From a virus, in the IMG/VR virus record IMGVR_UViG_3300042391_000692, positions 1 through 64,000 of that record: 64,000 nucleotides of DNA, one strand, 5' to 3'. A program made the translations under genes and the position numbers. Positions 17,191 through 34,692 of the stretch are shown piece by piece. The stretch's first letter is position 1, and each line of letters begins with the position of its first letter. A model generated the notes under the pieces. It was given only the letters and a program-made list of their open reading frames with translations. It was not told the DNA's origin and searched no databases.

Positions 17191-18477
17191 TTAGTATCTA
17201 TAGGTGTCGGGTTTGTACGGGCCGTCAACTGTGACACCAATATACGCGGCCTGCTTGAGTGTCATTGCAGTGAGCTCCGCACCAATCTGCTCCAGATGTA
17301 GTCGTGCAACTTTTTCATCCAGGTGCTTGGGCAACAGGTACAGTCGACCTGTTTCGTATCGACTGGTGTTGGTGTAAAGATCAATTTGTGCCATGACTTG
17401 GTTGGTAAAACTGTTACTCATCACAAAGCTGGGATGGCCAGTGCCACAACCCAAGTTAACCAGTCTGCCTTCTGCTAGCAAAATAATACGTTTGCCACTG
17501 GGGAAAATAACATGGTCCACTTGTGGCTTGATGTTTTCCCACTCACAGTCCTTGATACCTGCAACATCAATTTCAGTATCAAAGTGACCAATGTTACACA
17601 CAATAGCATTGTTCTTCATGGCGTCCATGTGTGCGCGAGTGATAACATCTACGTTGCCAGTGGCAGTTACAAAGATGTCACACTTGTCTGCCGCGTATTC
17701 CATTGTGACCACACGATAACCTTCCATTGCCGCTTGCAGGGCACAGATAGGATCTGCTTCTGTAACCCAAACTTGTGCAGAGAGTGCTCGCAGAGCTTGT
17801 GCAGAGCCCTTGCCCACGTCTCCATAGCCGGCTACCACTGCAACCTTACCGGCAATCATGACGTCAGTGGCACGTTTGATAGCGTCTACAAGACTTTCTC
17901 TGCAACCATACAAGTTGTCAAACTTGGTCTTGGTTACAGAATCGTTTACATTGATAGCAGGCATCCGCAGTGTGCCAGCCGCAATGCGCTCTAGTAACTT
18001 GTGAATACCTGTTGTGGTTTCTTCTGTGACACCTCGGATACCAGGAACTAGATCAGGGTGTTTGTCATGGATGTACCCAGTTAAGTCATGTCCATCATCA
18101 AGGATCATGTTGGGAGTCCAACCATCTGCACCACGCACAGTCTGCTCAATGCACCACCAGTATTCCGCTTCTGTTTCGCCCTTCCAAGCAAAAACAGGAA
18201 TACCTTTTGCAGCCAAAGCAGCCGCGGCTTGGTCTTGTGTGGAGAAGATGTTGCAACTACTCCAACGCACACTAGCACCAAGTTCAATTAGTGTTTCGAC
18301 CAGCACAGCCGTTTGAATGGTCATGTGCAAACTGCCCACAATACGTGCGCCTGCCAAGGGCTTTGAGCCAGCATACTCACGACGGATTGCCATCAAGCCA
18401 GGCATTTCGTGCTCGGCGATAGCAATCTCTTTGCGGCCCCAATCTGCAAGGCCAATATCTCTAATTTTGTAATCCAT
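17191..18477 (-). CDS. ahcY: S-adenosylhomocysteine hydrolase
   Basis: 428 aa from [25 protein letters not shown] precedes the ATG. Substrate loop (HMTIQTAVL), catalytic region ([18 protein letters not shown]) and the NAD site [11 protein letters not shown] are intact, and the C-terminus ends KPDTYRY as in bacterial enzymes. It splits SAH to adenosine and homocysteine, relieving product inhibition of methyltransferases. Unusual in phage; follows the omega-like gene with one base between stop and start. Confidence 0.95.
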
Positions 18478-18478
18478 G

Positions 18479-18742
18479 TTACCTCGATTCTTTGTATCTA
18501 CGTCGCGGTTCGATATCAATTTCTTTGTACAGATAATCTCTAGTGACGTGTCCAGCTTCAATTTCCAGCAGTGCTGTTACTGCATGATTGTGCTTGATAG
18601 CACTGGCAATTTTTGGCATATCGCCTCGACCCAATTCTCGCATGCGACGAGCGCCTACTAGTACCAAATCGTATCTATTTCCAATTGCTTCCACAGCGAG
18701 TTCGCTTGTGAGCCCAGCAGTTTCAGGTGTGGTCATATTCAT
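18479..18742 (-). CDS. RNA polymerase omega-subunit-like protein
   Basis: 87 aa. [22 protein letters not shown], then a PKI.. segment and [13 protein letters not shown] match the conserved core of bacterial RpoZ ([16 protein letters not shown] ... ALREIAxGxV). Omega binds the beta-prime C-terminus and helps polymerase assembly and ppGpp response. A phage copy could replace or compete with the host subunit. Placed between SAH hydrolase and a zinc-ribbon-like gene. Confidence 0.82.
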
Positions 18743-21104: not shown

Positions 21105-21179
21105 TGGTAGGCCTTGAGAGGATCGAACTCCCACCGCTTGTTTCGAAGACAAGCATGATATCCATTTCACCAAAGGCCT
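21105..21179 (-). tRNA. tRNA-Arg(TCG), CCA encoded
   Basis: Acceptor AGGCCTT/AAGGCCT, anticodon loop CTTCGAA, T-arm GGGAG-TTCGATC-CTCTC. Reads CGA. Confidence 0.9.
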
Positions 21180-21182
21180 ATG

Positions 21183-21256
21183 TGGTGCTCTCAACAAGAA
21201 TTGAACTTGTGTTTCATCCTTACCAAGGATGTGTAATGCCATTATACTATGAGAGC
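21183..21256 (-). tRNA. tRNA-Thr(GGT), CCA encoded
   Basis: Acceptor GCTCTCA/TGAGAGC, anticodon arm CATCC-TTGGTAA-GGATG. Confidence 0.9.
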
Positions 21257-21260
21257 TAAG

Positions 21261-21334
21261 TGGAGCAGGATACCAGAATCGAACTGGTGACTGGACCTTG
21301 GCAAGGTTCTATTTTACCCCTAAACTAATCCTGC
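21261..21334 (-). tRNA. tRNA-Gly(GCC), CCA encoded
   Basis: Acceptor GCAGGAT/ATCCTGC, discriminator T, anticodon loop TTGCCAA (one A-C mismatch in the stem). Confidence 0.9.
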
Positions 21335-21347
21335 AATTTTTTACTTA

Positions 21348-21821
21348 TTAGGCTGCTCGTAGACTTTTGAATCTATCTGCCGCGTATGATGCCGCAAATG
21401 CTTCTGGCTTCACAAACGGGATCACATTGCATGTTCCTTTAATGTAGCCTACAGCTTGTGAAATCACACAGCTTGATCCGTGCATTTCGTTTGGGTTGAT
21501 GTCCAAGTGAACTTCAACTTCACGGCCTTCTAGCACATCGGCCAGCTTCAAATACAATTCGCTAACCTTGTATACTTCTGTCATGAGTCGCATGGCCGGC
21601 TTGCTTGGTTTTTGATCGTAAACACGTTCTCGGTGTACTTCGCCAAACAGTTTGCAACCGTTGTTGCCGTTGATGTGTACCACAATGGCCAGCACATAGT
21701 CAGCATACCAAGCACCGTCAATTTTGATTCGTTCCGAGTCGCAGCCAAGATAGATTCGAGTTTCGGGTGTTTGGGCCCGGATAAACTCTGCTACTTGATT
21801 GATGTCTAGTTTTTTCATCAT
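21348..21821 (-). CDS. YkuK-like RNase H-fold protein
   Basis: 157 aa from MMKKLDINQVAEFIRAQ. ETRIYLGCDSERIK, YADYVLAIVVHINGNNG and EVHLDINPNE resemble the YkuK/RNase H-like family, where the first Asp (CDS) and later DxN take the place of catalytic carboxylates. The frame upstream of the ATG overlaps two tRNA genes and is not coding. Sits among tRNAs; a role in RNA handling is plausible inference. Confidence 0.7.
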   Translation of the reverse strand: MMKKLDINQVAEFIRAQTPETRIYLGCDSERIKIDGAWYADYVLAIVVHINGNNGCKLFGEVHRERVYDQKPSKPAMRLMTEVYKVSELYLKLADVLEGREVEVHLDINPNEMHGSSCVISQAVGYIKGTCNVIPFVKPEAFAASYAADRFKSLRAA

Positions 21822-21861
21822 TGTCTTTCTATTTAACTCGGGAACCGTTACAGTTTTATTA

Positions 21862-21941
21862 TGGTACCCCTGCTCAGATTCGAACTGAGAACATATACTC
21901 CCTTTTGAGGAGAGTGACTTTACCAATTTGTCCACAGGGGC
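21862..21941 (-). tRNA. tRNA-Leu(CAA), short variable arm
   Basis: Acceptor GCCCCTG/CAGGGGT, anticodon arm CTCTC-CTCAAAA-GGGAG, T-arm CTCAG-TTCGAAT-CTGAG. Variable region only eight bases, unlike normal class II leucine tRNAs. CCA encoded. Confidence 0.82.
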
Positions 21942-21956
21942 ACAGCGTTTGAAATT

Positions 21957-22033
21957 TGGTGCCCCAGGGGAGACTCGAACTCCCAAAATTTGGCTTCTAA
22001 GACCAACACGTATACCAATTCCGTCACCGGGGC
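21957..22033 (-). tRNA. tRNA-Leu(TAG), class I-like variable loop
   Basis: Acceptor GCCCCGG/CTGGGGC, anticodon arm TTGGT-CTTAGAA-GCCAA, then a five-base variable loop and T-arm GGGAG-TTCGAGT-CTCCC. CCA encoded. Confidence 0.85.
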
Positions 22034-22044
22034 TTAAATACAAT

Positions 22045-22260
22045 ATGCACGAAAAGGAAAAAATCTATGTTAAAGATCTCTACAGATTGTTCTGTACAGA
22101 ACTTTACACAACTACCGCAAGTTGGGTAACCGCAAAACACTTTGTGGCCGACCCTTTGCTGGATCTGAAAAAAGAATTTATTCCTGATGCTACATTGGTA
22201 CCAGGAGACGGGATCGAACCGCCCACACCTTGTGCTTCAAACAAGTGCTCTACCAACTGA
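22045..22260 (+). CDS. Plus-strand ORF ending antisense to tRNA-Phe (doubtful)
   Basis: ATG at 22045 opens MHEKEKIYVKDLYRLFCTEL and looks protein-like up to about 22194; the last 22 codons are antisense to tRNA-Phe and the stop lies in that tRNA. It may be a gene whose 3' end was replaced by tRNA insertion, or chance. No family recognised. Confidence 0.3.
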   Translation: MHEKEKIYVKDLYRLFCTELYTTTASWVTAKHFVADPLLDLKKEFIPDATLVPGDGIEPPTPCASNKCSTN

Positions 22261-22271
22261 GCTATCCTGGC
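22196..22271 (-). tRNA. tRNA-Phe(GAA), CCA encoded
   Basis: Acceptor GCCAGGA/TCCTGGT, anticodon arm CTTGT-TTGAAGC-ACAAG, T-loop TTCGATC. Confidence 0.92.
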
Positions 22272-22277
22272 AATATT

Positions 22278-22352
22278 TGGTACCTGGTCACGGTTTCGAA
22301 CCGCGGACCCTCTCCGTGTAAAGGAGACGCTCTACCCCTGAGCTAACCAGGC
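22278..22352 (-). tRNA. tRNA-Val(TAC), CCA encoded
   Basis: Acceptor GCCTGGT/ACCAGGT, anticodon arm TCTCC-TTTACAC-GGAGA. Confidence 0.93.
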
Positions 22353-22361
22353 AAACTATTT

Positions 22362-22453
22362 TGGCGGAAGACGGAGGAGTCGAACCCCATCCCTGTTAAG
22401 AGAACCTGGTTTTCAAGGCCAGTCGCGGGACCAACCCCACTGCATCATCTTCC
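22362..22453 (-). tRNA. tRNA-Ser(TGA), CCA encoded
   Basis: Acceptor GGAAGAT/GTCTTCC, discriminator G, anticodon arm CTGGC-CTTGAAA-ACCAG, long variable arm. Confidence 0.92.
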
Positions 22454-22458
22454 ATATA

Positions 22459-22535
22459 TGGTCGGAATGACACGGTTCGAACGTGCGACCACTGCGTCCC
22501 AAACGCAGAGCTCTACCAGGCTGAGCTACATTCCG
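22459..22535 (-). tRNA. tRNA-Pro(TGG), CCA encoded
   Basis: Acceptor CGGAATG/CATTCCG, anticodon arm CTGCG-TTTGGGA-CGCAG. Confidence 0.93.
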
Positions 22536-22543
22536 AATTAAAC

Positions 22544-22762
22544 TTACTTTAACTTGGGATCAATTGACTTATCAACTTCGTGCGGTTCTGCAAACCTAGG
22601 AGTTGGCTGATCCCAATACGCTGGAAAGATCTTCCAGCCAAAACTTTTCCAGTAACGATGAATGATGTTGTTTATCACAACAACCCCAGCCACGATTACA
22701 ATTACACCTGTCATTGTTAAAACACTGCCGGCTAAAAATACTGCCGCTTGATCCATATCCAT
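22544..22762 (-). CDS. Small membrane protein, 72 aa
   Basis: One long or two adjacent membrane segments at about 6-35 (AAVFLAGSVLTMTGVIVIVA then GVVVINNII), followed by a basic-aromatic cytoplasmic tail. Lies inside the tRNA cluster, on the same strand. No family recognised; spanin- or holin-like roles cannot be tested here. Confidence 0.6.
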   Translation of the reverse strand: MDMDQAAVFLAGSVLTMTGVIVIVAGVVVINNIIHRYWKSFGWKIFPAYWDQPTPRFAEPHEVDKSIDPKLK

Positions 22763-22786
22763 ATTTGTAAATCCTTTGGAGTTGTG

Positions 22787-23404
22787 TTATTTCAGCATCA
22801 ATTCCACAGGATCAATAATGGGCATGGTTGCCAGCATGATCCTGGGATATTTTGCATCAGGCCCCGGCATAACCCTGTGAGGGATATAACTGTTGAAAAC
22901 AATAGGATGCTCATGCATGTTATACCTCAGCAAACAAGGATACTGATCTTGTACAGTGTGATGTAACACAGAAAAATTATACTGTTCTGTGCCTGTGTAT
23001 GGGTTTGTCATAACCGGGAGCCGATTCATGGCTTCCTTGGGAATATCATACCACTCTGTATAAACATCCTCAGTGTTGTAGATTGGAAAGTTTATTTTGA
23101 AGTTCATGGGCGGTGCATCGTTGTGCAACACAACCCCATCGGTCATACCTTCTGTCAGCAATCCCACTGTGATTTCTTTGATAGGCAGGTTGACTCGAAA
23201 CATAAATCGCAACAAATTTGGACACACCTTGGCCATTTGTTTGTAATCTATCAGATGCCAGAACTTTTTTTCTTGTTTTTCGTTTAGAAAATCAGTGTTA
23301 TCTACAACCCAGTTCATTATCTCTTCTTTGATTTGATCAAGGTTGTCACACTCAAGTTCGTGTATACATTTGAAACGACTTTGGTCTGGGATATAATCAA
23401 TCAT
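22787..23404 (-). CDS. 2-oxoglutarate oxygenase-like (cupin fold) protein
   Basis: 205 aa. LHNDAPPMNFKINFPI (H-x-D near residue 104) and later NSYIPHRVMPGPDAKYPRIML supply an HxD...H facial triad and a distal Arg in the order used by Fe(II)/2-oxoglutarate dioxygenases such as aspartyl/asparaginyl hydroxylases. Overall similarity is not strong and the call is from motif order. Located within the tRNA island, so tRNA or ribosomal-protein hydroxylation is a possible target (inference). Confidence 0.5.
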   Translation of the reverse strand: MIDYIPDQSRFKCIHELECDNLDQIKEEIMNWVVDNTDFLNEKQEKKFWHLIDYKQMAKVCPNLLRFMFRVNLPIKEITVGLLTEGMTDGVVLHNDAPPMNFKINFPIYNTEDVYTEWYDIPKEAMNRLPVMTNPYTGTEQYNFSVLHHTVQDQYPCLLRYNMHEHPIVFNSYIPHRVMPGPDAKYPRIMLATMPIIDPVELMLK

Positions 23405-23429
23405 GATATATTTACTACCTACAATTATT

Positions 23430-23503
23430 TGGAGCAGGGTAGGGGAATCGAACCCCTCGCTTTAGCTTGGAAGGCTAAGGTATTACCACTATACGAACCC
23501 TGC
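23430..23503 (-). tRNA. tRNA-Gly(TCC), CCA encoded
   Basis: Acceptor GCAGGGT/ACCCTGC, discriminator T, anticodon arm TTAGC-CTTCCAA-GCTAA. Confidence 0.93.
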
Positions 23504-23551
23504 GTTGAATTACTTATTATACAGCATCTTAGCAATACTGTAAAGCAATTT

Positions 23552-23626
23552 TGGTAGCCATGGACAATTTCGAAATGTCGACCTAACGCTTATCAAGCGT
23601 TTGCTCTTCCTCTGAGCTACACGGCT
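23552..23626 (-). tRNA. tRNA-Ile(GAT), CCA encoded
   Basis: Acceptor AGCCGTG/CATGGCT, anticodon arm AACGC-TTGATAA-GCGTT, T-loop TTCGAAA. Confidence 0.9.
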
Positions 23627-23635
23627 AAATATTGA

Positions 23636-23809
23636 ATGCACATTGACGTCTATCTACAAAAACAGTTGTACTGCACCATTGAACTAAGTCAGCCCGGTTA
23701 CAATGTGCCTGCTATCTTGGATCAAATCCAAAGTGATCGCGAAGCTGGCAACTTGACCTGGGTACAGTGGGATCAGCCGCTTGACTTTGAAGTCAAATAC
23801 TTTGAATAA
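23636..23809 (+). CDS. Small plus-strand protein, 57 aa
   Basis: ATG at 23636 opens MHIDVYLQKQLYCTIELSQP and ends VKYFE, a compact alpha/beta-looking peptide. It fills the 185-bp gap between tRNA-Ile and tRNA-Gln and is one of very few plus-strand genes. No clear ribosome site (TATTGA precedes it). No family recognised. Confidence 0.5.
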   Translation: MHIDVYLQKQLYCTIELSQPGYNVPAILDQIQSDREAGNLTWVQWDQPLDFEVKYFE

Positions 23810-23811
23810 CT

Positions 23812-23885
23812 TGGCACGGGAACTAGGGCTCGAACCTAGAATGACAGAGTCAAAGTCTGTAGTGTTACCATTACACTATTCCCGA
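23812..23885 (-). tRNA. tRNA-Gln(TTG), CCA encoded
   Basis: Anticodon arm ACAGA-CTTTGAC-TCTGT; position 1 T faces T72 and discriminator is G, consistent with the weak 1-72 pair that glutaminyl-tRNA synthetase prefers. Confidence 0.88.
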
Positions 23886-23893
23886 ACAAAACT

Positions 23894-23968
23894 TGGTGGA
23901 TGTAAGTAGATTCGAACTACTGACCTGCCGCGTATGAAGCGAATGCACTACCGCTGTGCTATACATCC
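23894..23968 (-). tRNA. tRNA-Met or Ile2 (CAT), CCA encoded
   Basis: Acceptor GGATGTA/TACATCC, anticodon loop TTCATAC. Elongator methionine or lysidine-modified isoleucine cannot be separated here. Confidence 0.88.
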
Positions 23969-23971
23969 GAT

Positions 23972-24045
23972 TGGGGTATCCAATGAGAATTGAACTCATG
24001 ATAGCGGAATCACAATCCGCGGTTTTACCACTAAACTATGGACAC
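23972..24045 (-). tRNA. tRNA-His(GTG), CCA encoded
   Basis: Acceptor GTGTCCA/TGGATAC, discriminator C facing an upstream G(-1), anticodon arm GCGGA-TTGTGAT-TCCGC. Confidence 0.92.
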
Positions 24046-24161
24046 CATATAGGAGCACTCTCAACAGCAGGCCTAGGAGGCAATCTGGTTGCTGAAACTT
24101 TTGCATCTGCAGATACTAGGCTTCTTCTCCCGCGTTGACTTACGCCAAGAATGCTTTTATA
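24046..24161 (-). other. Structured spacer, possible stable RNA
   Basis: Between tRNA-His and tRNA-Lys. Minus strand has GCCTAG...CTAGGC enclosing ATCTGCAGAT, and GCGTAAGTCAACGC just upstream. No convincing ORF. May be a processing structure or small RNA. Confidence 0.35.
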
Positions 24162-24235
24162 TGGTAGGGGTGTTCGGGAACGATCCGAATTTTACTGGTT
24201 AAAAGCCAGTTACTTCACCTTAAAGTTTCACCCCC
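24162..24235 (-). tRNA. tRNA-Lys(TTT), unusual T-loop
   Basis: Acceptor GGGGGTG/CACCCCT, anticodon arm ACTGG-CTTTTAA-CCAGT, T-arm TTCGG-ATCGTTC-CCGAA, in which T54 and A58 of the usual loop are replaced. Confidence 0.82.
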
Positions 24236-24286
24236 ATAGGTTTATCACTCTTGTCACTAGTCATGACAGATCTCCTTTTAAAAAAT

Positions 24287-24363
24287 TGGTACCACCTGAG
24301 AGATTCAAACTCCCGACCCCTAAGTTCGTAGCCTAGTGCTCTGTTCAGCTGAGCTAAGGTGGT
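24287..24363 (-). tRNA. tRNA-Arg(ACG), CCA encoded
   Basis: Acceptor ACCACCT/AGGTGGT, anticodon arm CTAGG-CTACGAA-CTTAG. Confidence 0.9.
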
Positions 24364-24367
24364 GTGT

Positions 24368-24443
24368 TGGTGCCCCTTGTCCGACTCGAACAGACCACCT
24401 ACTGCTTACAAAACAGTTGCTCTACCGGATGAGCTAAAGGGGC
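24368..24443 (-). tRNA. tRNA-Thr(TGT), CCA encoded
   Basis: Acceptor GCCCCTT/AAGGGGC, anticodon arm ACTGT-TTTGTAA-GCAGT. Confidence 0.93.
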
Positions 24444-24450
24444 AAATTGT

Positions 24451-24540
24451 TGGCGGTGCGAAAGAGACTCGAACTCTTAAAGCGGCTTTCACCACTCGAC
24501 GGATTAGCAATCCGCTCCAATACCATTATGGGACCGCACC
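24451..24540 (-). tRNA. tRNA-Ser(GCT), CCA encoded
   Basis: Acceptor GGTGCGG/TCGCACC, discriminator G, anticodon arm GCGGA-TTGCTAA-TCCGT, long variable arm. Confidence 0.92.
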
Positions 24541-24547
24541 TCAAATT

Positions 24548-24623
24548 TGGCTCCCCAGCGTGGGATCGAACCACGGACACCTTGATTAACAGTCAAGTGC
24601 AACTACCGCTGTGCTACTAGGGA
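24548..24623 (-). tRNA. tRNA-Asn(GTT), CCA encoded
   Basis: Acceptor TCCCTAG/CTGGGGA, discriminator G, anticodon arm CTTGA-CTGTTAA-TCAAG. Confidence 0.93.
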
Positions 24624-24633
24624 ATAATCTACT

Positions 24634-24657
24634 TAGTAGGCACTCATGCCTACTATC
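24634..24657. repeat. Perfect hairpin between tRNA-Asn and tRNA-Trp
   Basis: TAGTAGGCA, four-base loop, TGCCTACTA. No T-run follows, so a processing hairpin is more likely than a terminator. Confidence 0.6.
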
Positions 24658-24664
24658 AAAAACT

Positions 24665-24741
24665 TGGCGACCCGGGAAGGATTTGAACCTCCGACATTTG
24701 GTTTTGGAGACCAACGTTCTGCCAGACTGAACTACCGAGCC
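24665..24741 (-). tRNA. tRNA-Trp(CCA anticodon), CCA encoded
   Basis: Acceptor GGCTCGG/CCGGGTC, discriminator G, anticodon arm TTGGT-CTCCAAA-ACCAA. Confidence 0.92.
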
Positions 24742-24746
24742 ATATT

Positions 24747-24821
24747 TGGTGGAGGATAAGAGAATTGAACTCTTTTGACCTACGTGCAAGGCAGGCATAA
24801 TACCCAGTATATGAATCCCCC
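24747..24821 (-). tRNA. tRNA-Ala(TGC), CCA encoded
   Basis: Acceptor GGGGGAT/ATCCTCC with G3-T70 wobble (alanine identity), anticodon arm CCTGC-CTTGCAC-GTAGG. Confidence 0.92.
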
Positions 24822-24849
24822 AAATTTTCAAACACACTGTTTCCAATGT

Positions 24850-24908
24850 GTGTATTAAAGCACTCTAAAATACTTAGGCTGCCTGTTCGTAAAGAATGCT
24901 TTAATACG
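24850..24908. repeat. 11-bp inverted repeat in gene-free stretch
   Basis: GTATTAAAGCA (from 24852) and TGCTTTAATAC (to 24907) with about 33 bases between. The wider interval 24822-25002 has no gene I can support. Confidence 0.5.
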
Positions 24909-25002
24909 CTGTAATTTTTTATCTCACAAAAGAGACTCTATCCTACAGGCCGCCCATTTGTAGTTTAGAGTGATACCGGCTCTCGTTGCCATTGCACTAA
25001 AT

Positions 25003-25033
25003 GAAAAACCCTGGAGTGTTTAGTTCCAGGGTC
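25003..25033 (-). terminator. Terminator after the 44-aa ORF
   Basis: Minus strand ACCCTGGA-loop-TCCAGGGT followed by TTTTTC. Confidence 0.78.
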
Positions 25034-25055
25034 TTGTTGAATTTGTCAGTTACTT

Positions 25056-25190
25056 TTATGCGTAACCTGCACCTTCAATAGACCCCGACATCCCTAGAAT
25101 ACTATTCACGCGACCAGAGGCGTGTGACCAGGTAAATGTTGCCTGGAGCATCGCGGGTTTTGTCGACAGTGAACGGAATGTTGTTTTCAT
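25056..25190 (-). CDS. Small peptide with own promoter and terminator, 44 aa
   Basis: Opens MKTTFRSLSTKPAMLQATFT and ends EGAGYA. AGGACTT precedes the ATG; a consensus promoter (TTGACA-N17-TACAAT, 25201-25229) lies directly upstream and a terminator at 25003-25033 directly downstream, so this is a monocistronic transcript inside the tRNA island. The Ser/Thr/Ala-rich sequence has no recognised family. The ORF at 26917 has a similar first five residues and layout. Confidence 0.6.
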   Translation of the reverse strand: MKTTFRSLSTKPAMLQATFTWSHASGRVNSILGMSGSIEGAGYA

Positions 25191-25200
25191 CTTAAGTCCT

Positions 25201-25229
25201 ATTGTAGTTTATTTATGATTGTTTGTCAA
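25201..25229 (-). promoter_or_regulatory. Sigma70-type promoter
   Basis: Minus strand TTGACA, 17 bp, TACAAT, eleven bases before the ATG at 25190. Confidence 0.82.
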
Positions 25230-25245
25230 TCACAAATGGTAAAAT

Positions 25246-25320
25246 TGGTTGCGGGTGAAGGATTCGAACCTCCGTCTTCTAGGTTATGAGCCTAGTAGTC
25301 TACCACTGACGTAACCCGCG
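25246..25320 (-). tRNA. Initiator tRNA-fMet(CAT)
   Basis: 5' C1 faces A72 (CGCGGGT ... ACCCGCA, discriminator A, CCA), the mismatch that marks bacterial initiators; anticodon arm CTAGG-CTCATAA-CCTAG, T-loop TTCGAAT. Only two of the three initiator G-C pairs remain. Confidence 0.9.
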
Positions 25321-25338
25321 TTAACTTTTATTTATATC

Positions 25339-25414
25339 TGGAGTAGGTGACAGGACTCGAACCTGCATTTTACGGATTTGCAATCCGGCGCCTAACCATT
25401 CGGCACACACCTAC
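25339..25414 (-). tRNA. tRNA-Cys(GCA), CCA encoded
   Basis: Acceptor GTAGGTG/CACCTAC, discriminator T, anticodon arm CCGGA-TTGCAAA-TCCGT. Confidence 0.92.
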
Positions 25415-25640
25415 ACTAATTGAATTTGCAAGTAGTTGCTCCATCGTTATAGCAACCATTCACCCGTGTAATAAACTCGAGCGGGACTCGGTACGTCACT
25501 TGGGATACTAGTCCAGTTTGTCTCCGTTACAGACACCACCCTTGCGAGTGGTTGGGAGTTGAACCCATCACCTTCTACTGTTTTGGTCCTTCGAAGAAAC
25601 CTAGACAGCATGACATTCTCTTGCTGACACTTACAAAACT
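25415..25640 (-). pseudogene. tRNA-like remnant region
   Basis: At 25544-25625 the minus strand has a T-arm-like GGGTTCAACTCCC and an anticodon-arm-like GGTTT-CTTCGAA-GGACC (would read TCG), but no pairing acceptor stem. I read this as a decayed tRNA; the rest of the interval shows nothing I can name. Confidence 0.35.
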
Positions 25641-25715
25641 TGGCGATGCATGGGAGAATCGAACTCCCGTCTCCGGATAGACAATCCGGGATAATGACCA
25701 TTATATGAATGCACC
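25641..25715 (-). tRNA. tRNA-Asp(GTC), copy 1
   Basis: Acceptor GGTGCAT/ATGCATC, discriminator G, anticodon arm CCGGA-TTGTCTA-TCCGG, T-loop TTCGATT. Confidence 0.92.
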
Positions 25716-25722
25716 TTAAACT

Positions 25723-25797
25723 TGGCGGTCCCAGGGGGTAACGATCCCCCTCTTCAGCAGTGACAGTGCTGTGTGCGTCCATGAACACCTTGAGACC
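25723..25797 (-). tRNA. tRNA-Asp(GTC), copy 2 with unusual T-loop
   Basis: Acceptor GGTCTCA/TGGGACC, discriminator G, anticodon arm CAGCA-CTGTCAC-TGCTG, T-arm GGGGG-ATCGTTA-CCCCC. CCA encoded. Confidence 0.8.
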
Positions 25798-25799
25798 AA

Positions 25800-25952
25800 T
25801 TTTTATAGTTAAGCACCGAGAATGCCAATTTAGGAGTCCGGTGCTTCTGTTCCAAAGCCGATGCAGTTATATCAGGATCAGTCGCCGGCCGCTGTGACCC
25901 GAATAGTGTAAGCGTCCTTACACGATACCTTATCGGTGCTTAACTATAAAAA
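25800..25952 (-). ncRNA. Candidate structured RNA closed by a 20-bp perfect stem
   Basis: Bases 25800-25819 and 25933-25952 are exact reverse complements. The 113-nt interior contains a second hairpin (GTGTAAG...CTTACAC) and no ORF. It lies between tRNA-Asp copy 2 and tRNA-Tyr and would be transcribed with them. T4 encodes two stable non-tRNA RNAs in its tRNA cluster; this may be an analogue. Confidence 0.5.
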
Positions 25953-26158
25953 CAAAAATGCTCTGCATCCCCCGGCGGTAATTGTAGTACATCAAGATAC
26001 GACGCTATCGTACCCATCACACGTACCTTCCACCCGCTTCCCGACAGGGACCGTTATCGCATTGCTAGCGGCCTTTGGGTTCAAAGACTACCACCCGTAG
26101 CTGTCACGCTACTTCTCATCGTGTGGGTCACACTATCCGGAGACACCCGGAACGTTCT
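25953..26158 (-). other. Gene-free stretch with several short hairpins
   Basis: Minus strand has GTAGC-GTGACA-GCTAC, CTTTGAACCCAAAG, TACGA-TAGCG-TCGTA and ATGC-AGA-GCAT followed by TTTTTG. Probably RNA-coding or decayed tRNA; no ORF. Confidence 0.3.
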
Positions 26159-26244
26159 TGGTGGAGATGGATGGATTTGAACCACCGCGCTTTTTACAGA
26201 ACAGATTTACAGTCTGCCGCCTTCAACCACTCGGCCACATCTCC
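26159..26244 (-). tRNA. tRNA-Tyr(GTA), CCA encoded
   Basis: Acceptor GGAGATG/CATCTCC, anticodon arm GCAGA-CTGTAAA-TCTGT, long variable arm. Confidence 0.93.
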
Positions 26245-26316
26245 AAAAAAGGGAGAGCTACGGTTGCAGGACCTAGTGCCTCTTGCGAGGGAAGTATCCA
26301 GGCGATGTAGCTCTCA
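26245..26316 (-). ncRNA. Candidate small structured RNA with terminator tail
   Basis: Minus strand is closed by GAGAGCTAC / GTAGCTCTC (9 bp), has an inner CCTGG/CTAGG stem around CCTC-GCAA-GAGG (GNRA-like tetraloop), and ends in CCCTTTTTT before tRNA-Tyr. May be a small RNA or an attenuator. Confidence 0.45.
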
Positions 26317-26319
26317 AAC

Positions 26320-26394
26320 TGGTAGAGCGTAGGAGAGTCGAACTCCTCTTATGCGGATGAAAACCGCATGTCCTAACCGATAGACGAACGCTCC
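26320..26394 (-). tRNA. tRNA-Glu(TTC), CCA encoded
   Basis: Acceptor GGAGCGT/ACGCTCT (G1-T72), anticodon arm TGCGG-TTTTCAT-CCGCA, T-loop TTCGACT. Confidence 0.9.
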
Positions 26395-27019: not shown

Positions 27020-27388
27020 ACAGCAGACAAAAAGTCTACTGTTTTGGTAAAATTGGATAGGTTTATTCTGTTACGAGGAAAACCTATCAAAACCCTAGGC
27101 AGTGTTTAGGCTGCCAATGCGAACTGTTCGTCGTTTGCGTTTACGTTTTTTGCTTCTACGACCGGGAAACCCCAACCCTACGGCTTTCACATTGCCGAGC
27201 TGTCCACTCTGTTACTCTTTGCCCTGTCGAAACCATGGCAGGCCCATTATAAAACATACTCAAACGGGTCTTTTCGCCTATCCCCGTGCCGTGGCTTGCA
27301 AGGATAGGGCTGAATATGCTTTATGGTGGACCTGGCGGGAGTCGAACCCGCGTCCAGAACACTTTTCTCTTTGCTTCATACAGCAATA
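27020..27388 (-). ncRNA. ssrA: Circularly permuted (two-piece) tmRNA
   Basis: The acceptor-piece comes first in transcription: GGACGCGGGTTCGACTCCCG and CCAGGTCCACCA end at 27324. A 78-nt spacer with a long hairpin (CCTATCC/GGATAGG, CATATTCA/TGAGTATG) follows, then the coding piece starts at 27245 with GGGCCTG, which pairs with CAGGTCC including the G3-U70 wobble for alanyl charging. TGGTTTCGACAGGG and the run-up to the tag follow. The tag frame (27106-27138, resume codon GCA) reads ANDEQFALAA then TAA. tmRNA frees stalled ribosomes and tags the peptide. The 3' limit of the coding piece is approximate. Confidence 0.93.
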
Positions 27389-27394
27389 ACCTAT

Positions 27395-27423
27395 ATTATA
27401 TTAGGCTTTCTGAATTTTGTCAA
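27395..27423 (-). promoter_or_regulatory. Full-consensus sigma70 promoter of tmRNA
   Basis: Minus strand TTGACA, 17 bp, TATAAT, lying in the 3' end of the DctP-like gene. Predicted start is near 27388. Confidence 0.88.
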
Positions 27424-28345
27424 CCAAACCGGCACTGAATGTGTTGGCAAATTGATCATATACTTTGGCAGTTACCTTGCGAAAAGTTTGCTCATCAGCA
27501 TCGCTAAATTTAATAACACGAATGCCATCTTGCTCACAACGTGCCTTGGTAGGCTCAACTTCGGCCACAGCCACAGCACGCTCAAAACGTCCAGCTTCTA
27601 ATGCCGCATCTTTCATGACCTGTTGCAGGTCTGCAGACAAGCCAGCCAAGAAGTTCTTGTTCACAATGATGTTAGTCAACAACAAGCGATGGTTGGGTTC
27701 CAAGATAGATTCAGCAACTTCGTTTTGTTGGCAAGCATAGATACGTGGCCATGAGCTTTCGCCGCCATCAATAGCACCATCTCGGATGCCTTCGGCCACA
27801 CGTTCAACGTCCATCACAACTGGATCAGCGCCCAGGGCAGTCCATGTAGCGGCTGCAACTGGTGAATTTGACACACGCACTTTAACGCCGGCCATTTCAC
27901 TTAGACTTGCAACGTCACGATTCATGGGCATGTTCATAAAGCCACCTGAGTAGGTAAATGCCATGCCTTTGATGTTGCTGTTCTTGGCGTAACCATCCAG
28001 CAAACTCTCGCCAATTTCACTTTCAAACACACGTGCCGCGTGATCGTGATCACGGAACAAGAAAGGCAAATCAAGTGCGTCAAGATCATTGTTGTACTTG
28101 CTGAGTACATAAGTGTACATCTGGCTCATTTCAATAGCGCCAGTGTCCATAACATCCAACAGGTTATGTTTGGTGATTGGTTCACCATGATTGTACTTGC
28201 TGGTATACTCGCTTAGAGTCAGCACTTCAATCTCAAACTGTCCTGGTGCACGGGCTTCTACTACTTCAGTAAATTTTTCAGCGGCACGAATAAAAATGTC
28301 AATAGGTTCATGGGCTAATACCCATTTGATGTGGATAGGTTTCAT
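27401..28345 (-). CDS. TRAP-transporter DctP-like binding protein without signal peptide
   Basis: 314 aa from MKPIHIKWVLAHEPIDIFIR; AAGGA lies nine bases before. The family's body is clear: GAIEMSQMYTYVL, LPFLFRDHDHAARVF, AGVKVRVSNSPVAAATWTAL, GAIDGGESSWPRIYACQQNEVAE and LTNIIVNKNF. The arginine/aspartate ligand region is present. No hydrophobic export signal precedes the mature-type start, so it is likely cytoplasmic, unlike normal DctP. Downstream genes are RNA only; no TRAP membrane subunits. Confidence 0.85.
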   Translation of the reverse strand: MKPIHIKWVLAHEPIDIFIRAAEKFTEVVEARAPGQFEIEVLTLSEYTSKYNHGEPITKHNLLDVMDTGAIEMSQMYTYVLSKYNNDLDALDLPFLFRDHDHAARVFESEIGESLLDGYAKNSNIKGMAFTYSGGFMNMPMNRDVASLSEMAGVKVRVSNSPVAAATWTALGADPVVMDVERVAEGIRDGAIDGGESSWPRIYACQQNEVAESILEPNHRLLLTNIIVNKNFLAGLSADLQQVMKDAALEAGRFERAVAVAEVEPTKARCEQDGIRVIKFSDADEQTFRKVTAKVYDQFANTFSAGLVDKIQKA

Positions 28346-28375
28346 AATATTTTTTCCTTGAGTAATAGCTTGCAT

Positions 28376-28530: not shown

Positions 28531-29715
28531 TTAAAATTTAAAATGATTGTTGATACCTGAGCTTTCAAAGTCAGCTTCGCCCAGGTAATAAAAGGGTGAT
28601 AAAAACCCCACAAAGCCAACTGCTTGCCCCATTTCTCTGTTGAAGTACTTGCTGTCAATAGTTTTTACTAGATGTGCAAGACCCGCTTGCCATTTGGCAT
28701 ACTGTGCAGTTTCTTTAAAGTTGGTATAAAACCAATGATCCATCTCGTTGTAAAAACTGTTGGTTGGTTTACTGGTCTGGAATGTTTCTTGATTGTACTG
28801 TGGGTAGATTAACGGCTTGATCAAGTGCTCGTATGTTGTTCGATGGGTGTAGCTGTAGTTTGGCCAACGGCACACATACTGCATGTGTTTGTTGTGCTCT
28901 AGCATAAACCAGTTCTTGACCATGTGGCATTGTTTGATAAACATCTCTGGCAAGTCAGGCGTCCAATAAAAATATTCGTTGGTCATGTTGGTATAATCAC
29001 CAAAATCACCCATGCTATGATTGGCCATAACATCAATAAAGTAAGCGTACCACTTTTTGTCCTTGATGCATAGCTTGGGCTTGTCTACCCCGTACAAGAT
29101 GCAAATGCGTTGACCAGTGTCTGCTAGCTTTTTGTGACCTACATAGCCTGTAGCTGAGTGCTTGAACGCATGTCCAGGTTGGAAATAATCTTTAGTTTTC
29201 ATAACCCAAGATTCATCATACACTTGAGTTAACATGTTTTCACTGTAGTCGTGCATGGTAATTTTTGTGCGAGGTGAAGCAGTGGTCAACCAGTTCAGCA
29301 CAGGATATGCCGCATAACGTGCTTCGCTTAGAGTGTTCTCAGGTTTGCAGTTAAACGGATCGTCGCTAACATCTTTCTCACCAGTCTTGGGATATCGAAA
29401 AACAACCTCATCAAGGTGTATTCCGTTGTTGATAAAGCTATACAATGCTGTAGTCGAATCTCCCCCACCAGAAAATTCTAAACGAATGTAATCGTACTTG
29501 TCCCGTAATTGTTGCGCACGAATTCGATACAGGTCTAGGATATTGATATTGGGTTCAACTAGCCAATTTTCGGCACCAAATATTTCGTTGCTGAAATTCC
29601 ATTCGGGAAACTGATTGGTTTCTGTTGCCTTGGTCAGTGCCATGGGCTTGCTAAAAAACTTTTCAGTTCCTACAGTGTAGTACCCCAACTTGGGGTTTTG
29701 TTCAATCTTGATCAT
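28531..29715 (-). CDS. PP-loop ATP pyrophosphatase-like protein A
   Basis: 394 aa. The PP-loop SGGGDS is at residues 82-87 in RLEFSGGGDSTTALY, the AMP-forming site of the asparagine synthase/N-type ATPase superfamily. The N-terminal GYYTVG...FSK...A pattern recurs in the gene at 31322 (GFYTVG..KTYSK), so the two are paralogs flanking the halogenase. These enzymes adenylate a carboxylate or amide and transfer nitrogen or sulfur. The C-terminal half is aromatic and has no glutaminase domain. Overlaps the halogenase by four bases. Confidence 0.72.
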   Translation of the reverse strand: MIKIEQNPKLGYYTVGTEKFFSKPMALTKATETNQFPEWNFSNEIFGAENWLVEPNINILDLYRIRAQQLRDKYDYIRLEFSGGGDSTTALYSFINNGIHLDEVVFRYPKTGEKDVSDDPFNCKPENTLSEARYAAYPVLNWLTTASPRTKITMHDYSENMLTQVYDESWVMKTKDYFQPGHAFKHSATGYVGHKKLADTGQRICILYGVDKPKLCIKDKKWYAYFIDVMANHSMGDFGDYTNMTNEYFYWTPDLPEMFIKQCHMVKNWFMLEHNKHMQYVCRWPNYSYTHRTTYEHLIKPLIYPQYNQETFQTSKPTNSFYNEMDHWFYTNFKETAQYAKWQAGLAHLVKTIDSKYFNREMGQAVGFVGFLSPFYYLGEADFESSGINNHFKF

Positions 29716-31325
29716 TGTGAGGTTCCAAAAAAGTTGTTGTACCAGTTGTTGGCTGACTGTGCATGCTTGGCTTGTATTTTATTTTTGCTGTTAAAGTAGT
29801 CAAAAAAGTTTATGGCCAGTTGTTCAGTTTCGTTGTCAATGTCTATTTGCCAGGGCAGATCTATGCCATAGTACATGGCCATGTTTGCTAAAGGACCTTG
29901 ATACCAAAAGTGCTGAAGTTTATCATTATAGTGTCGTCTTGATTCAGACACAACAGTGTCCTGCAGCCATTCCTTGATGCAAAGCTCTTGACCAACAGAA
30001 TTCATCAATTGCCAGTATGGAGTATCGTTTTTTGGCGCTAGATACATACCAACTTGAATACGTTTCAGCACGTCATTATTGATGTTGTTAACAAACTGAT
30101 TGTACGAATCTTTCCAGTCAAACGTTCGATCATGATCCTGCTTGATGTAATCAACCAATTGATTAATAAAAGCCAACTGAGTTGAAAATCCATTGGCGTC
30201 ATATACGTCAGTAAACCCGCTGGAGATACCCAGCGTCACACAATTAGCCACAAATGTTTGTTCAAAGAATCCGGCCTGCCAAGATATTTTTCTTTTGATT
30301 GCACCCTTCATCCACGGGAACCGCTGATCAAACTCGTCAATCAACTGCTGTTCATCAGTAGTAAAGTTTTTGTTGTACACATAACCATTGCCACTGCGCC
30401 CTGGTTGTGGCAGACCAAACACCCATCCTTGACTCATGGCATAATGTCTGGACACACAATCTGATGGATTTTCTAGATCATGACGATTTGGTCCCTGCCC
30501 AACTATTGCGGCATTGTTAATAGTATCTTCAACCGGACGCCAACGAAACGGTACAAACTGCGAAAACAATCTCTTGAACCCGGTACAGTCAACAAACAGA
30601 TCTGCATGCACCTGTGAATCGTCTTCACCTACTAGGTGAGTAACTCTGGTCCCATCAAACACCACATTCTTAATTCGCAGAGCTTGAACTTTGACTCCGC
30701 AAGGAATGCCCACGCTTTCGTGAATTACGTCTTTGACATAATCAGCATTGAAATGAAAACTTGAAACCAATCGCTTCTGTGGCAGATGCTGTTTGTTCAT
30801 GATTGTTTTGTAATAGCTATACCAATAGCTTTCGCTTAGGTCGCCAGCCCTGTTTTCATTTTTACGCAGTCCTTTGTTGTATAGGTGTAACCATACGTCC
30901 CACAATGTGTATTTGTCATCTTCGGCACCCGATGCTGGACCCAGAGGTTTTGTTCTATGCCCATAGGTGTCTGTTATAGATTGTGTAATTATCTTGGCAC
31001 TAGGATTCCACTGGAATCCAGAGACCATGGGTGTCTCGGTGCCATCAAATCCAAAAAATGCCACACCATACTTGTAGCTAGAATTTGATTTTTTCATCCA
31101 GTCATAAGAGCTCTCGTCATCAATGCCAAACAGTTTGCGCATAACATCACGACAGTTAAACGCAATGCTTTCTCCGACACCGATGTAAGGAGTGTTGGGA
31201 TCATGTACAATAGTCACATCAGTTCCTGGACAATTTCTTTTTATGGCGGCGGCTGCAAAATATCCAGCGGCTCCGGCGCCCACAATCACAACTTTGAGTG
31301 GCTTGGCTTCAGCATTTTTTATCAT
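29712..31325 (-). CDS. Flavin-dependent tryptophan-halogenase-family enzyme
   Basis: 537 aa, usual length. FAD motif GAGAAGYFAA (from residue 16), GVGES (49-53), candidate catalytic lysine K85 in SYKYGVAF, and GWVFGLP at 300-306 in the place of the WxWxIP motif. The family uses FADH2, O2 and halide to make HOCl/HOI, delivered through a tunnel to the lysine. A cyanophage relative is known to iodinate phenols. Flanked by two PP-loop genes with ATGA overlaps, so it probably acts on their substrate or product. Confidence 0.92.
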   Translation of the reverse strand: MIKNAEAKPLKVVIVGAGAAGYFAAAAIKRNCPGTDVTIVHDPNTPYIGVGESIAFNCRDVMRKLFGIDDESSYDWMKKSNSSYKYGVAFFGFDGTETPMVSGFQWNPSAKIITQSITDTYGHRTKPLGPASGAEDDKYTLWDVWLHLYNKGLRKNENRAGDLSESYWYSYYKTIMNKQHLPQKRLVSSFHFNADYVKDVIHESVGIPCGVKVQALRIKNVVFDGTRVTHLVGEDDSQVHADLFVDCTGFKRLFSQFVPFRWRPVEDTINNAAIVGQGPNRHDLENPSDCVSRHYAMSQGWVFGLPQPGRSGNGYVYNKNFTTDEQQLIDEFDQRFPWMKGAIKRKISWQAGFFEQTFVANCVTLGISSGFTDVYDANGFSTQLAFINQLVDYIKQDHDRTFDWKDSYNQFVNNINNDVLKRIQVGMYLAPKNDTPYWQLMNSVGQELCIKEWLQDTVVSESRRHYNDKLQHFWYQGPLANMAMYYGIDLPWQIDIDNETEQLAINFFDYFNSKNKIQAKHAQSANNWYNNFFGTSQ

Positions 31326-32549: not shown

Positions 32550-33452
32550 TCAACGTCGAACGCCTTGGGCGGCTTGTTGCCAGTGCCTATTTTCCTGGGC
32601 AAAACGTTTTTCCACTTCGGCAAGACTGAGAACAGGGGTTGACAAATATGCATTGGCCTGACGTTGTTGTATGCCTGAGTCTGTGGCCAGCACCTCTAGG
32701 TCTCGACGATATTGAGCAATATCTGCCTCTGGAGTAGCGGCAGGCACCAGTAACCAAAGATTGAGCACAAAATTTTCTAGTCCACGCATGCCAAGGCTGG
32801 CAAATGTGGGAATGCCTCGATGACTGCGAGTGCCTGTAATAGCGATTGGAAACAGTTGTCCACCATCAATCCAGCCTTCGCTATCAGCCAAGAATTCACT
32901 GGTTAGATCAATGTGTCCGCCTATAGCATCACGTGTGGCTTCGATGCCTCCAGGATAAAACGCCAACACCAGTTCAGTGTTGGGAAGATGTTGTTGCATG
33001 GCAATGGCCATAAGATGCGATATACTGCCCGGAACAACCCCAATGGTCAATGTGCGTTGTTGGCGTAGTTCAGCCCAGCTACGATATTTTTTGCTCATTA
33101 ATACCGGCGCTTGGTCGCCAGCAAACATCATGATAGGACGGAACTGTTCAACTCGATGCGCTTCAGTTTCTTTAAACAGCAAAGGCCTGATCATAAAACT
33201 GCTGGATGCGGCCAGCACTTCTGGACGCTGTGCATTGGCCACAGAGTTTGCGGCAATACTACCACCAGCACCTGGCCGGGTTGCAAACACATAGGTGCGT
33301 TGTGTCTGTGTTTTGTTGGCCAGTGCAGTGCCTTGTCGCAACACATTGGCTGTATTGCTACCGGGACTGAATCCCCATACCACTGAAACAGTTTCAGCAC
33401 TGGCGGTCACTGCCATCACACTCAAAATCAAAGTTAATAAAAATTTATTCAT
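32550..33452 (-). CDS. TctC/Bug-like substrate-binding protein, second copy
   Basis: 300 aa from MNKFLLTLILSVMAVTASAE, a clear signal peptide; GGAGAA precedes it. VSVVWGFSPGSNTANVL and FATRPGAGGSIAANSV occupy the positions of the family's PGGxxD and NKxGAG blocks, but the usual aspartate contact is changed (SNTAN), so the ligand may differ. Heads the halogenase/PP-loop run, spaced by one base. Its presence there suggests import or sensing of the small molecule that the downstream enzymes modify (inference). Confidence 0.8.
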   Translation of the reverse strand: MNKFLLTLILSVMAVTASAETVSVVWGFSPGSNTANVLRQGTALANKTQTQRTYVFATRPGAGGSIAANSVANAQRPEVLAASSSFMIRPLLFKETEAHRVEQFRPIMMFAGDQAPVLMSKKYRSWAELRQQRTLTIGVVPGSISHLMAIAMQQHLPNTELVLAFYPGGIEATRDAIGGHIDLTSEFLADSEGWIDGGQLFPIAITGTRSHRGIPTFASLGMRGLENFVLNLWLLVPAATPEADIAQYRRDLEVLATDSGIQQRQANAYLSTPVLSLAEVEKRFAQENRHWQQAAQGVRR

Positions 33453-33999
33453 TGTCATTATTCTCCACAGGGATCCACCCCAATTTAAAAAAATCCTCTT
33501 GGATCTCGTCAGTGACATGACCTTCGCCCACAAAGTGTTTGTCATACCACTCAATTCTTGCTCGTTGCTCACTAGTCAACTCCGCATCATCTGTTGCGGC
33601 ACCACCACGTATGCCCGAACAATACCAGTCCATGTAGTCGCCTTGTTCACGCATGTCGGCCACAATACCCCCGGCGTAGCGCCACGAGCACGACCAAGTT
33701 TGGCCCTTCAACAATGGCCACACTGCGTTGCGTTGCCAGTCTTGATTGCACAAGGCCGCGTAGATGTTTTGTGCATACTCTTCTCGTGCTTTGGCCTTGG
33801 CACAGATCCACTCGGTACTGCGTAGATCGTATTCAAGATTGTTTTTCTTCCACTCCTCGTCAGCGTCGCGGGCAAGATCATGTGCCTTGGCATCTTCGTA
33901 CATGTTCAAGTAATCCTGATTGGGCTCCTCGCCAGTTTCTTCACAGCGTTTGATATAGTTTTCTGCTTGAAAGGTATGACGTTCTTTGCTACGATTCAT
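33445..33999 (-). CDS. Conserved phage protein of 184 aa, unknown
   Basis: Charged, helical N-terminus (MNRSKERHTFQAENYIKRCE) and Trp/Tyr-rich C-terminal half with WSCSWRYAGGIVADMREQGDY. Recalled from other myoviruses as unnamed. Overlaps the TctC-like gene by eight bases. Confidence 0.68.
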   Translation of the reverse strand: MNRSKERHTFQAENYIKRCEETGEEPNQDYLNMYEDAKAHDLARDADEEWKKNNLEYDLRSTEWICAKAKAREEYAQNIYAALCNQDWQRNAVWPLLKGQTWSCSWRYAGGIVADMREQGDYMDWYCSGIRGGAATDDAELTSEQRARIEWYDKHFVGEGHVTDEIQEDFFKLGWIPVENNDNE

Positions 34000-34012: not shown

Positions 34013-34098
34013 TGGTACCAGAGACGGGACTCGAACCCGTATGCCCTTGCGAGCGGCAGATTTTAAGTCTGCTGTGTATACCATTCCACCACTCTGGC
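34013..34098 (-). tRNA. tRNA-Leu(TAA), CCA encoded
   Basis: Acceptor GCCAGAG/CTCTGGT, anticodon arm GCAGA-CTTAAAA-TCTGC, normal long variable arm. Confidence 0.93.
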
Positions 34099-34107
34099 GA
34101 GTGTTTG

Positions 34108-34284
34108 TTAACCGCCTCGGCCGGCTGCTTTGCGAACTGGTTTACCTGCGGGTGCTAGCGGAGCAGAACGTTTGGCGGCCTTTTGCTGAGTCTTTGATAA
34201 CTTTGCATCAGGATGCGCAGAGGCATTCTTTCGATCTAGTGCTTGTTTCACTGCTGTGATAAAAGGTACTGGCGTTTTTGACAT
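34108..34284 (-). CDS. Small basic protein, 58 aa
   Basis: Opens MSKTPVPFITAVKQALDRKN and has a Lys/Ala/Pro/Arg-rich tail (KPVRKAAGRGG), so likely nucleic-acid binding and disordered. Between tRNA-Leu and a conserved phage gene, same strand. No family recognised. Confidence 0.55.
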   Translation of the reverse strand: MSKTPVPFITAVKQALDRKNASAHPDAKLSKTQQKAAKRSAPLAPAGKPVRKAAGRGG

Positions 34285-34297
34285 TGTTGCTCCAAGT

Positions 34298-34531
34298 TTA
34301 TTTAGCGGTCAGTTGTGCCCAGGCCAACCATTGCTTAAATGCATTATACACTGTTTCTGCTTCTTTGTCATCCACTGGCACTCGAACTCCACGTACATAG
34401 AATCCTTCTGGAGTGACCTTTATCATTTCATCTCCATCATTTAATGTCCATGAAATTGTATTGTTATGATACAAGCCTTCGGTACTGCCGCCCATGTCTA
34501 CCTGTAGTGTCTGCGGTTTGATAGGTGTCAT
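34298..34531 (-). CDS. Conserved small phage protein, 77 aa
   Basis: Starts MTPIKPQTLQVDMGG (ATG 34531, directly after tRNA-Arg). Contains ISWTLNDGDEMIKVTPEGFY followed by VRGVRV and AFKQWL, a pattern recalled in many T4-like phages, function unknown. Confidence 0.7.
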   Translation of the reverse strand: MTPIKPQTLQVDMGGSTEGLYHNNTISWTLNDGDEMIKVTPEGFYVRGVRVPVDDKEAETVYNAFKQWLAWAQLTAK

Positions 34532-34540
34532 GCTAGTCCT

Positions 34541-34615
34541 TGGTCCGGCGTGCAAGAATCGAACTCACATTCAAGAGGTAGAAGCTCTTTGTATTATCCA
34601 TTATACTAACGCCAG
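34541..34615 (-). tRNA. tRNA-Arg(TCT), CCA encoded
   Basis: Acceptor CTGGCGT/ACGCCGG, anticodon arm AAGAG-CTTCTAC-CTCTT. Reads AGA/AGG. Confidence 0.92.
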
Positions 34616-34617
34616 GT

Positions 34618-34692
34618 TGGTGGGACCACTTGGAATTGAACCAAGACTCAATCGATTATGAGTCGACTGCTTTACCATTAAGCTATGATCCC
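34618..34692 (-). tRNA. tRNA-Met or Ile2 (CAT), second elongator-type copy
   Basis: Acceptor GGGATCA/TGGTCCC, anticodon arm GTCGA-CTCATAA-TCGAT. CCA encoded. Confidence 0.9.

Follow-up and report, generated by a model that had tools for sequence, protein, structure and literature searches.

The locus studied here raises two questions: whether a virus carries a genuine circularly permuted transfer-messenger RNA (tmRNA) gene, and what such a gene could do for it. It lies on a 64,000-nucleotide stretch of viral DNA (the window), which forms positions 1 to 64,000 of the 100,363-base (~100 kb) IMG/VR record IMGVR_UViG_3300042391_000692. A sequence-only reading had described at this place a two-piece tmRNA gene on the minus strand of a phage, with GGGCCTG pairing with CAGGTCC across a hairpin-bearing 78-nt spacer, a retained G3-U70 pair, the tag ANDEQFALAA followed by TAA, a full-consensus promoter just upstream and a complete tRNA set in the same virus.

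Anatomy of the permuted tmRNA gene

ARAGORN called a tmRNA* (the permuted form) on the minus strand between 27015 and 27416 and read its tag as ANDEQFALAA*. Full-length matches above the cut-off were also obtained with two Rfam covariance models, tmRNA_permuted (RF04321; model positions 1-213, 123 bits against a cut-off of 47, E = 1.5e-23) and beta_tmRNA (RF01850; 27437-27018, 112 bits against a cut-off of 84, E = 2.8e-33). The minus strand thus does carry a genuine circularly permuted (two-piece) tmRNA gene, spanning about 27387-27056, and the earlier description proved accurate nearly base for base, including the promoter, the tag and the tRNA set. The features of the window, all on the minus strand, are as follows.

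27395-27423, minus strand: sigma-70 promoter TTGACA-N17-TATAAT, an exact match (12/12)
27324-27383, minus strand: 3' piece, comprising the 5' strand of helix H2, the T-arm GCGGG-TTCGACT-CCCGC, the acceptor 3' strand CAGGTCC and the encoded ACCA (covariance models and sequence)
27246-27323, minus strand: spacer of 78 nt that folds into a long hairpin and is presumably cut out during processing (fold z -4.2)
27106-27245, minus strand: 5' piece, comprising the acceptor 5' strand GGGCCTG, the D region, the 3' strand of H2 and the mRNA-like region to the tag stop (covariance models, H2 covariation)
27106-27138, minus strand: tag frame ANDEQFALAA, then TAA (ARAGORN and sequence)
27056-27088, minus strand: 3' hairpin GATAGGTTT...AAACCTATC, the likely end of the mRNA piece (fold z -4.5, end of the covariance-model match)
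21105-26394, minus strand: 26 tRNAs arrayed shortly downstream of the tmRNA (ARAGORN)
34013-34692, minus strand: trio of tRNA-Met, tRNA-Arg(TCT) and tRNA-Leu(TAA) (ARAGORN, comparison with relatives)
61317-63977, minus strand: DNA polymerase of the jumbo-phage type (phrog_262 match, polymerase relatives)

The 3' piece of the tRNA-like domain (TLD) comes first in the gene, followed by the spacer and then by the 5'/mRNA piece. CAGGTCC-ACCA ends at 27324 and GGGCCTG begins at 27245, which sets the bounds of the spacer; its fold (-26.8 kcal/mol) was equalled by 0 of 200 shuffles. The two acceptor strands form a 7-bp stem with G3-U70 and an encoded CCA, and the T-loop and D region are of the beta type. 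Folded as a single sequence, the 5' piece showed no signal (z -0.34), in line with what pseudoknots would lead one to expect. ARAGORN made one further tmRNA call, at 27324-27632, which overlaps the dctP-like gene and was judged spurious. The -35 element of the promoter overlaps the 3' end of that same gene. Promoter matches of at least 10/12 were found upstream of 88 of 257 distinct phage tmRNA loci, compared with 4/257 in shuffles. ARAGORN also detected tRNAs for all 20 amino acids within the window.

Source phage, relatives and known systems

Polymerase affinities, together with a 364-kb relative, make a jumbo phage with a Phosso/Atu_ph07/RaK2-like polymerase the most likely source of this fragmentary record. 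The DNA polymerase matched phage family phrog_262 with 656 bits, and the best isolates are all jumbo phages: Sinorhizobium phage Phosso (51% identity), Agrobacterium phage Atu_ph07 (45%) and the 121Q group (~42%). IMG/VR holds polymerases 80-94% identical to that of the record; one of them, at 90%, sits on a 364-kb contig, which is among the relatives with a permuted tmRNA. Scanning of part of the ORFs on this 100-kb fragment revealed no capsid, portal or terminase gene; the fragmentary state of the record and the partial scan can explain this.

The permuted tmRNA scored above cut-off in 6 of the 20 contigs with close polymerases, many of the other contigs being short. Relatives hold the gene at the syntenic place, often with the same strong promoter. 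Phosso carries a permuted tmRNA (113 bits); none was detected in Atu_ph07, 121Q or Vibrio phage 2.275.O. Among the matches listed, ARAGORN confirmed the permuted form in at least 236 IMG/VR loci, and GenBank phages of Alcaligenes, Stenotrophomonas and Xanthomonas also encode it (L003, L004, L005, L006, L007), several of them without annotation. Xanthomonad hosts presumably have a one-piece tmRNA. ARAGORN found no tmRNA gene in two relatives (L216 and L218), the match in G422 fell below the cut-off, and L210, a 3-kb contig of phage-like look from a bacterial-MAG bin, has at 1448-1510 an additional, degenerate 3' piece that lies upstream of its full gene. These cases show that the gene decays or diverges in some phages, and they count against the functional reading given below.

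Permuted phage tmRNAs have been published, so the window gene is not the first to be found. Two-piece forms account for 53 of 133 unique phage tmRNA structures in one survey, 50 of the 53 coming from marine or aquatic samples (PMC9004378), and 79 unique phage tmRNA sequences are described in the source of RF04321 (PMC11915505). Methylophilales phage Melnitz (PMC9004378) likewise bears a permuted ssrA; its tmRNA, however, is of the alphaproteobacterial type and is accompanied by a glutamine riboswitch, whereas the window gene has a beta-like TLD, belongs to a jumbo-phage lineage and gave no Rfam riboswitch match. Phosso, the nearest isolate by DNA polymerase, shares both the permuted tmRNA and a ClpA gene with the record, but its polymerase identity of only 51%, its far larger tmRNA spacer and its alphaproteobacterial host set it apart. 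One tmRNA is also reported in Sinorhizobium jumbo phage AP-J-162 (PMC11242549). The mycobacteriophage Bxz1 group and Bacillus phage G encode tmRNAs with a tag as well, although these are one-piece and of standard gene order. To this background the window adds a well-formed, promoter-driven example from a jumbo-phage group.

Structural constraint, descent and host

The phage sequences compared here were selected on acceptor and T-stem pairing, and these two stems therefore offer no independent test; helix H2 had no part in the selection. Across 241 distinct phage sequences H2 pairs in 95.6% of cells, versus 74% with partners shuffled and 36-48% with the strands slid, and double changes are frequent (for example U-A/G-C/C-G and G-C/A-U). 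Position 55 of the T-loop covaries almost perfectly with a base of the D region (U with G in 149/150, G with A in 86/89). Of 337 phage permuted tmRNAs, 334 retain G3-U70 and the other 3 have A-U; 318 of the 337 end in the tail ACCA. The distinct phage tags mostly end in AA (107/123), many of them in ALAA (66/123). Taken together with the promoter enrichment, these patterns are the signs of a working RNA and not of a relic. Permuted tmRNAs of phages thus occur in large numbers, diverge from the bacterial copies that were sampled and are strongly constrained in structure.

Two variations were seen in this set. The encoded tail is ACCT in 19/337 phage sequences, including relatives L213 and L216. 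Unusually long or odd tags occur in L011, L014, L022, L061 and similar loci, with, for example, ~30 residues, or ends in AV or FA in place of AA.

A FastTree phylogeny of both tmRNA pieces, with SH-like supports only, placed the window tmRNA in a clade made up of 88 phage sequences alone (support 0.94); 0.13 substitutions per site separate it from the nearest phage and 0.99 from the nearest bacterium. Judged from this tree, the window tmRNA is a member of a large, fast-changing, virus-only family. Recent capture from a host was rejected on the strength of the tree and of the weak, short matches across 399 Burkholderiales genomes. With regard to descent from a betaproteobacterial ssrA, the nearest bacteria are of the beta type at a distance of ~1, in a tree that contains two bacterial beta-type sequences since no more than 2 of 60 Burkholderiales species exceeded the beta cut-off; in this order the permuted form thus seems to be uncommon. 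The window gene resembles the beta_tmRNA of some betaproteobacteria (RF01850) in its full-length match and its beta-type T-loop and D region, but differs in grouping with phages and in its 78-nt spacer, compared with 30 and 42 nt in the two sampled bacterial sequences.

These results weaken the betaproteobacterial host that the sequence-only reading had proposed. The beta-like covariance subtype speaks for such a host. However, the lineage of the gene is one of phages, and TLDs in this phage and its relatives are of the beta type (the window itself and L213), the alpha type (L216, L217) or an intermediate type (L214, L210); the subtype is therefore weak evidence of host. Moreover, the nearest isolates by polymerase infect alphaproteobacteria, and permuted forms occur in the Stenotrophomonas, Xanthomonas and Alcaligenes phages mentioned above. 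The shared tag was rejected as a guide to the host: in genomes, the ANDEQFALAA tmRNA pattern was found only in two Limnobacter species, whose tmRNA is one-piece, and on a phage-like MAG contig with 7 tRNAs and the tmRNA within 3 kb.

Phages whose DNA polymerases are similar can nonetheless differ in having alpha-, beta- or mixed-type domains. That related phages differ in T-loop and D-region class suggests an exchange of the tRNA-like domain among phages. The non-canonical T-loop GGCAGTG of some relatives was considered as a new feature and discarded, as it resembles the alphaproteobacterial type. Relative L218 has an odd loop of 9 nt.

Probable function of the tmRNA, rival explanations and neighbouring genes

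The gene probably makes a functional two-piece tmRNA for use in infection, acting in trans-translation with host SmpB. We propose the following course on the basis of the sequence evidence. A precursor would be transcribed from the gene's own promoter, and host RNase P and 3' processing enzymes would excise the spacer, leaving the 3' tRNA piece and the 5' mRNA-like piece joined through acceptor and H2 pairing. AlaRS would charge the tmRNA through G3-U70, and host SmpB and EF-Tu would bring it to stalled ribosomes. Appending of (A)ANDEQFALAA would then mark the product for Clp degradation and free the ribosome. Extra tmRNA could offset the non-stop complexes that arise from mRNA cutting during infection, and would fit a phage that supplies a tRNA for every amino acid. 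SmpB was sought in the record and in 36 related or comparison records and was found in none of them. Function would thus depend on the host, and the earlier suggestion that the virus rescues or reprograms ribosomes itself holds only in part: rescue stands if it is read as rescue with host SmpB, and reprogramming is unsupported, the tag being an ordinary hydrophobic ALAA degron. The huge phages of PMC7162821 similarly carry translation-support genes including tmRNA, but SmpB is reported there.

The dependence on host SmpB could also be read in another way. The phage RNA might mainly titrate host SmpB or EF-Tu and so dampen trans-translation by the host, a role put forward for the TLD-only tmRNA of mycobacteriophage DS6A. 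The lack of an SmpB gene in the record speaks for this decoy role, and a TLD-only RNA is reported to inhibit (Mao et al. 2009, cited in PMC4131195 and PMC11915505). A decoy, however, would have no need of the whole tag frame, which is kept with a functional degron end across >120 distinct tags, and we regard this role as improbable. Still less probable is a passive origin, with the gene a functionless, recently captured host copy or the remnant of an integration site. tmRNA genes are common integration sites for islands and prophages (PMC12595487), but the record has no tyrosine integrase, neither the two pieces nor the promoter is truncated, the gene is conserved in relatives, and its place in the phage-only clade, far closer to phages than to any sampled bacterium, points the other way.

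A further alternative concerns the fate of the tag. The record encodes a full-length ClpA homologue (record 86698-88980; L002:4695-6980, minus strand; TIGR02639, 791 bits, below the curated cut-off of 993), which aligns end to end with E. coli ClpA and has IGF where the E. coli protein has the ClpP-docking IGL. ClpA was also found in 9 of 10 searched IMG/VR relatives with a tmRNA match, one of the nine being G422, with its sub-threshold tmRNA. The phage tmRNA might therefore write a tag that a phage ClpA-like unfoldase and host ClpP read, either to recycle host proteins or to clear aborted chains. We hold this to be unlikely: ClpA lies 60 kb from the tmRNA, no ClpP family match was obtained among the ORFs scanned in the record, and ClpA, present in Phosso, occurs also in tmRNA-less jumbo phages such as Atu_ph07 and 121Q and has been described as a jumbo-phage chaperone (PMC7824862). 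Given its wide occurrence in jumbo phages, ClpA may or may not be linked to the tag.

Trans-translation with host SmpB is therefore retained as the preferred reading, and we add to it a tentative, rather speculative picture: the permuted tmRNA may be a phage-maintained family that swaps alpha, beta and mixed domains as hosts change, matching host SmpB, that extends to phages of hosts with one-piece tmRNA, and whose tag in jumbo phages may be read by phage ClpA. Whether phage tmRNA serves to free ribosomes or to tag proteins becomes testable with such genes, as does the tracking of host SmpB by the tRNA-like domain.

In several relatives the tRNA trio is the immediate upstream neighbour of the tmRNA; in the window, ~6 kb of cargo genes intervene, among them a weak match to TctC, a gene for a tryptophan-halogenase-like protein and one for DctP. 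Solute-binding proteins of the TRAP (DctP) and TctC types and the tryptophan-halogenase-like protein appear as phage cargo, between the trio and the tmRNA or near them, at 27401-28375, 29712-31325, 32550-33572 and 14601-15548. Genes for adenosylhomocysteinase, ThyX, GTP cyclohydrolase I, PTPS/QueD-like and radical SAM proteins were also observed (17191-18561 and among the ORFs of 6335-57662), a set from which nucleotide or 7-deazaguanine modification metabolism is possible.
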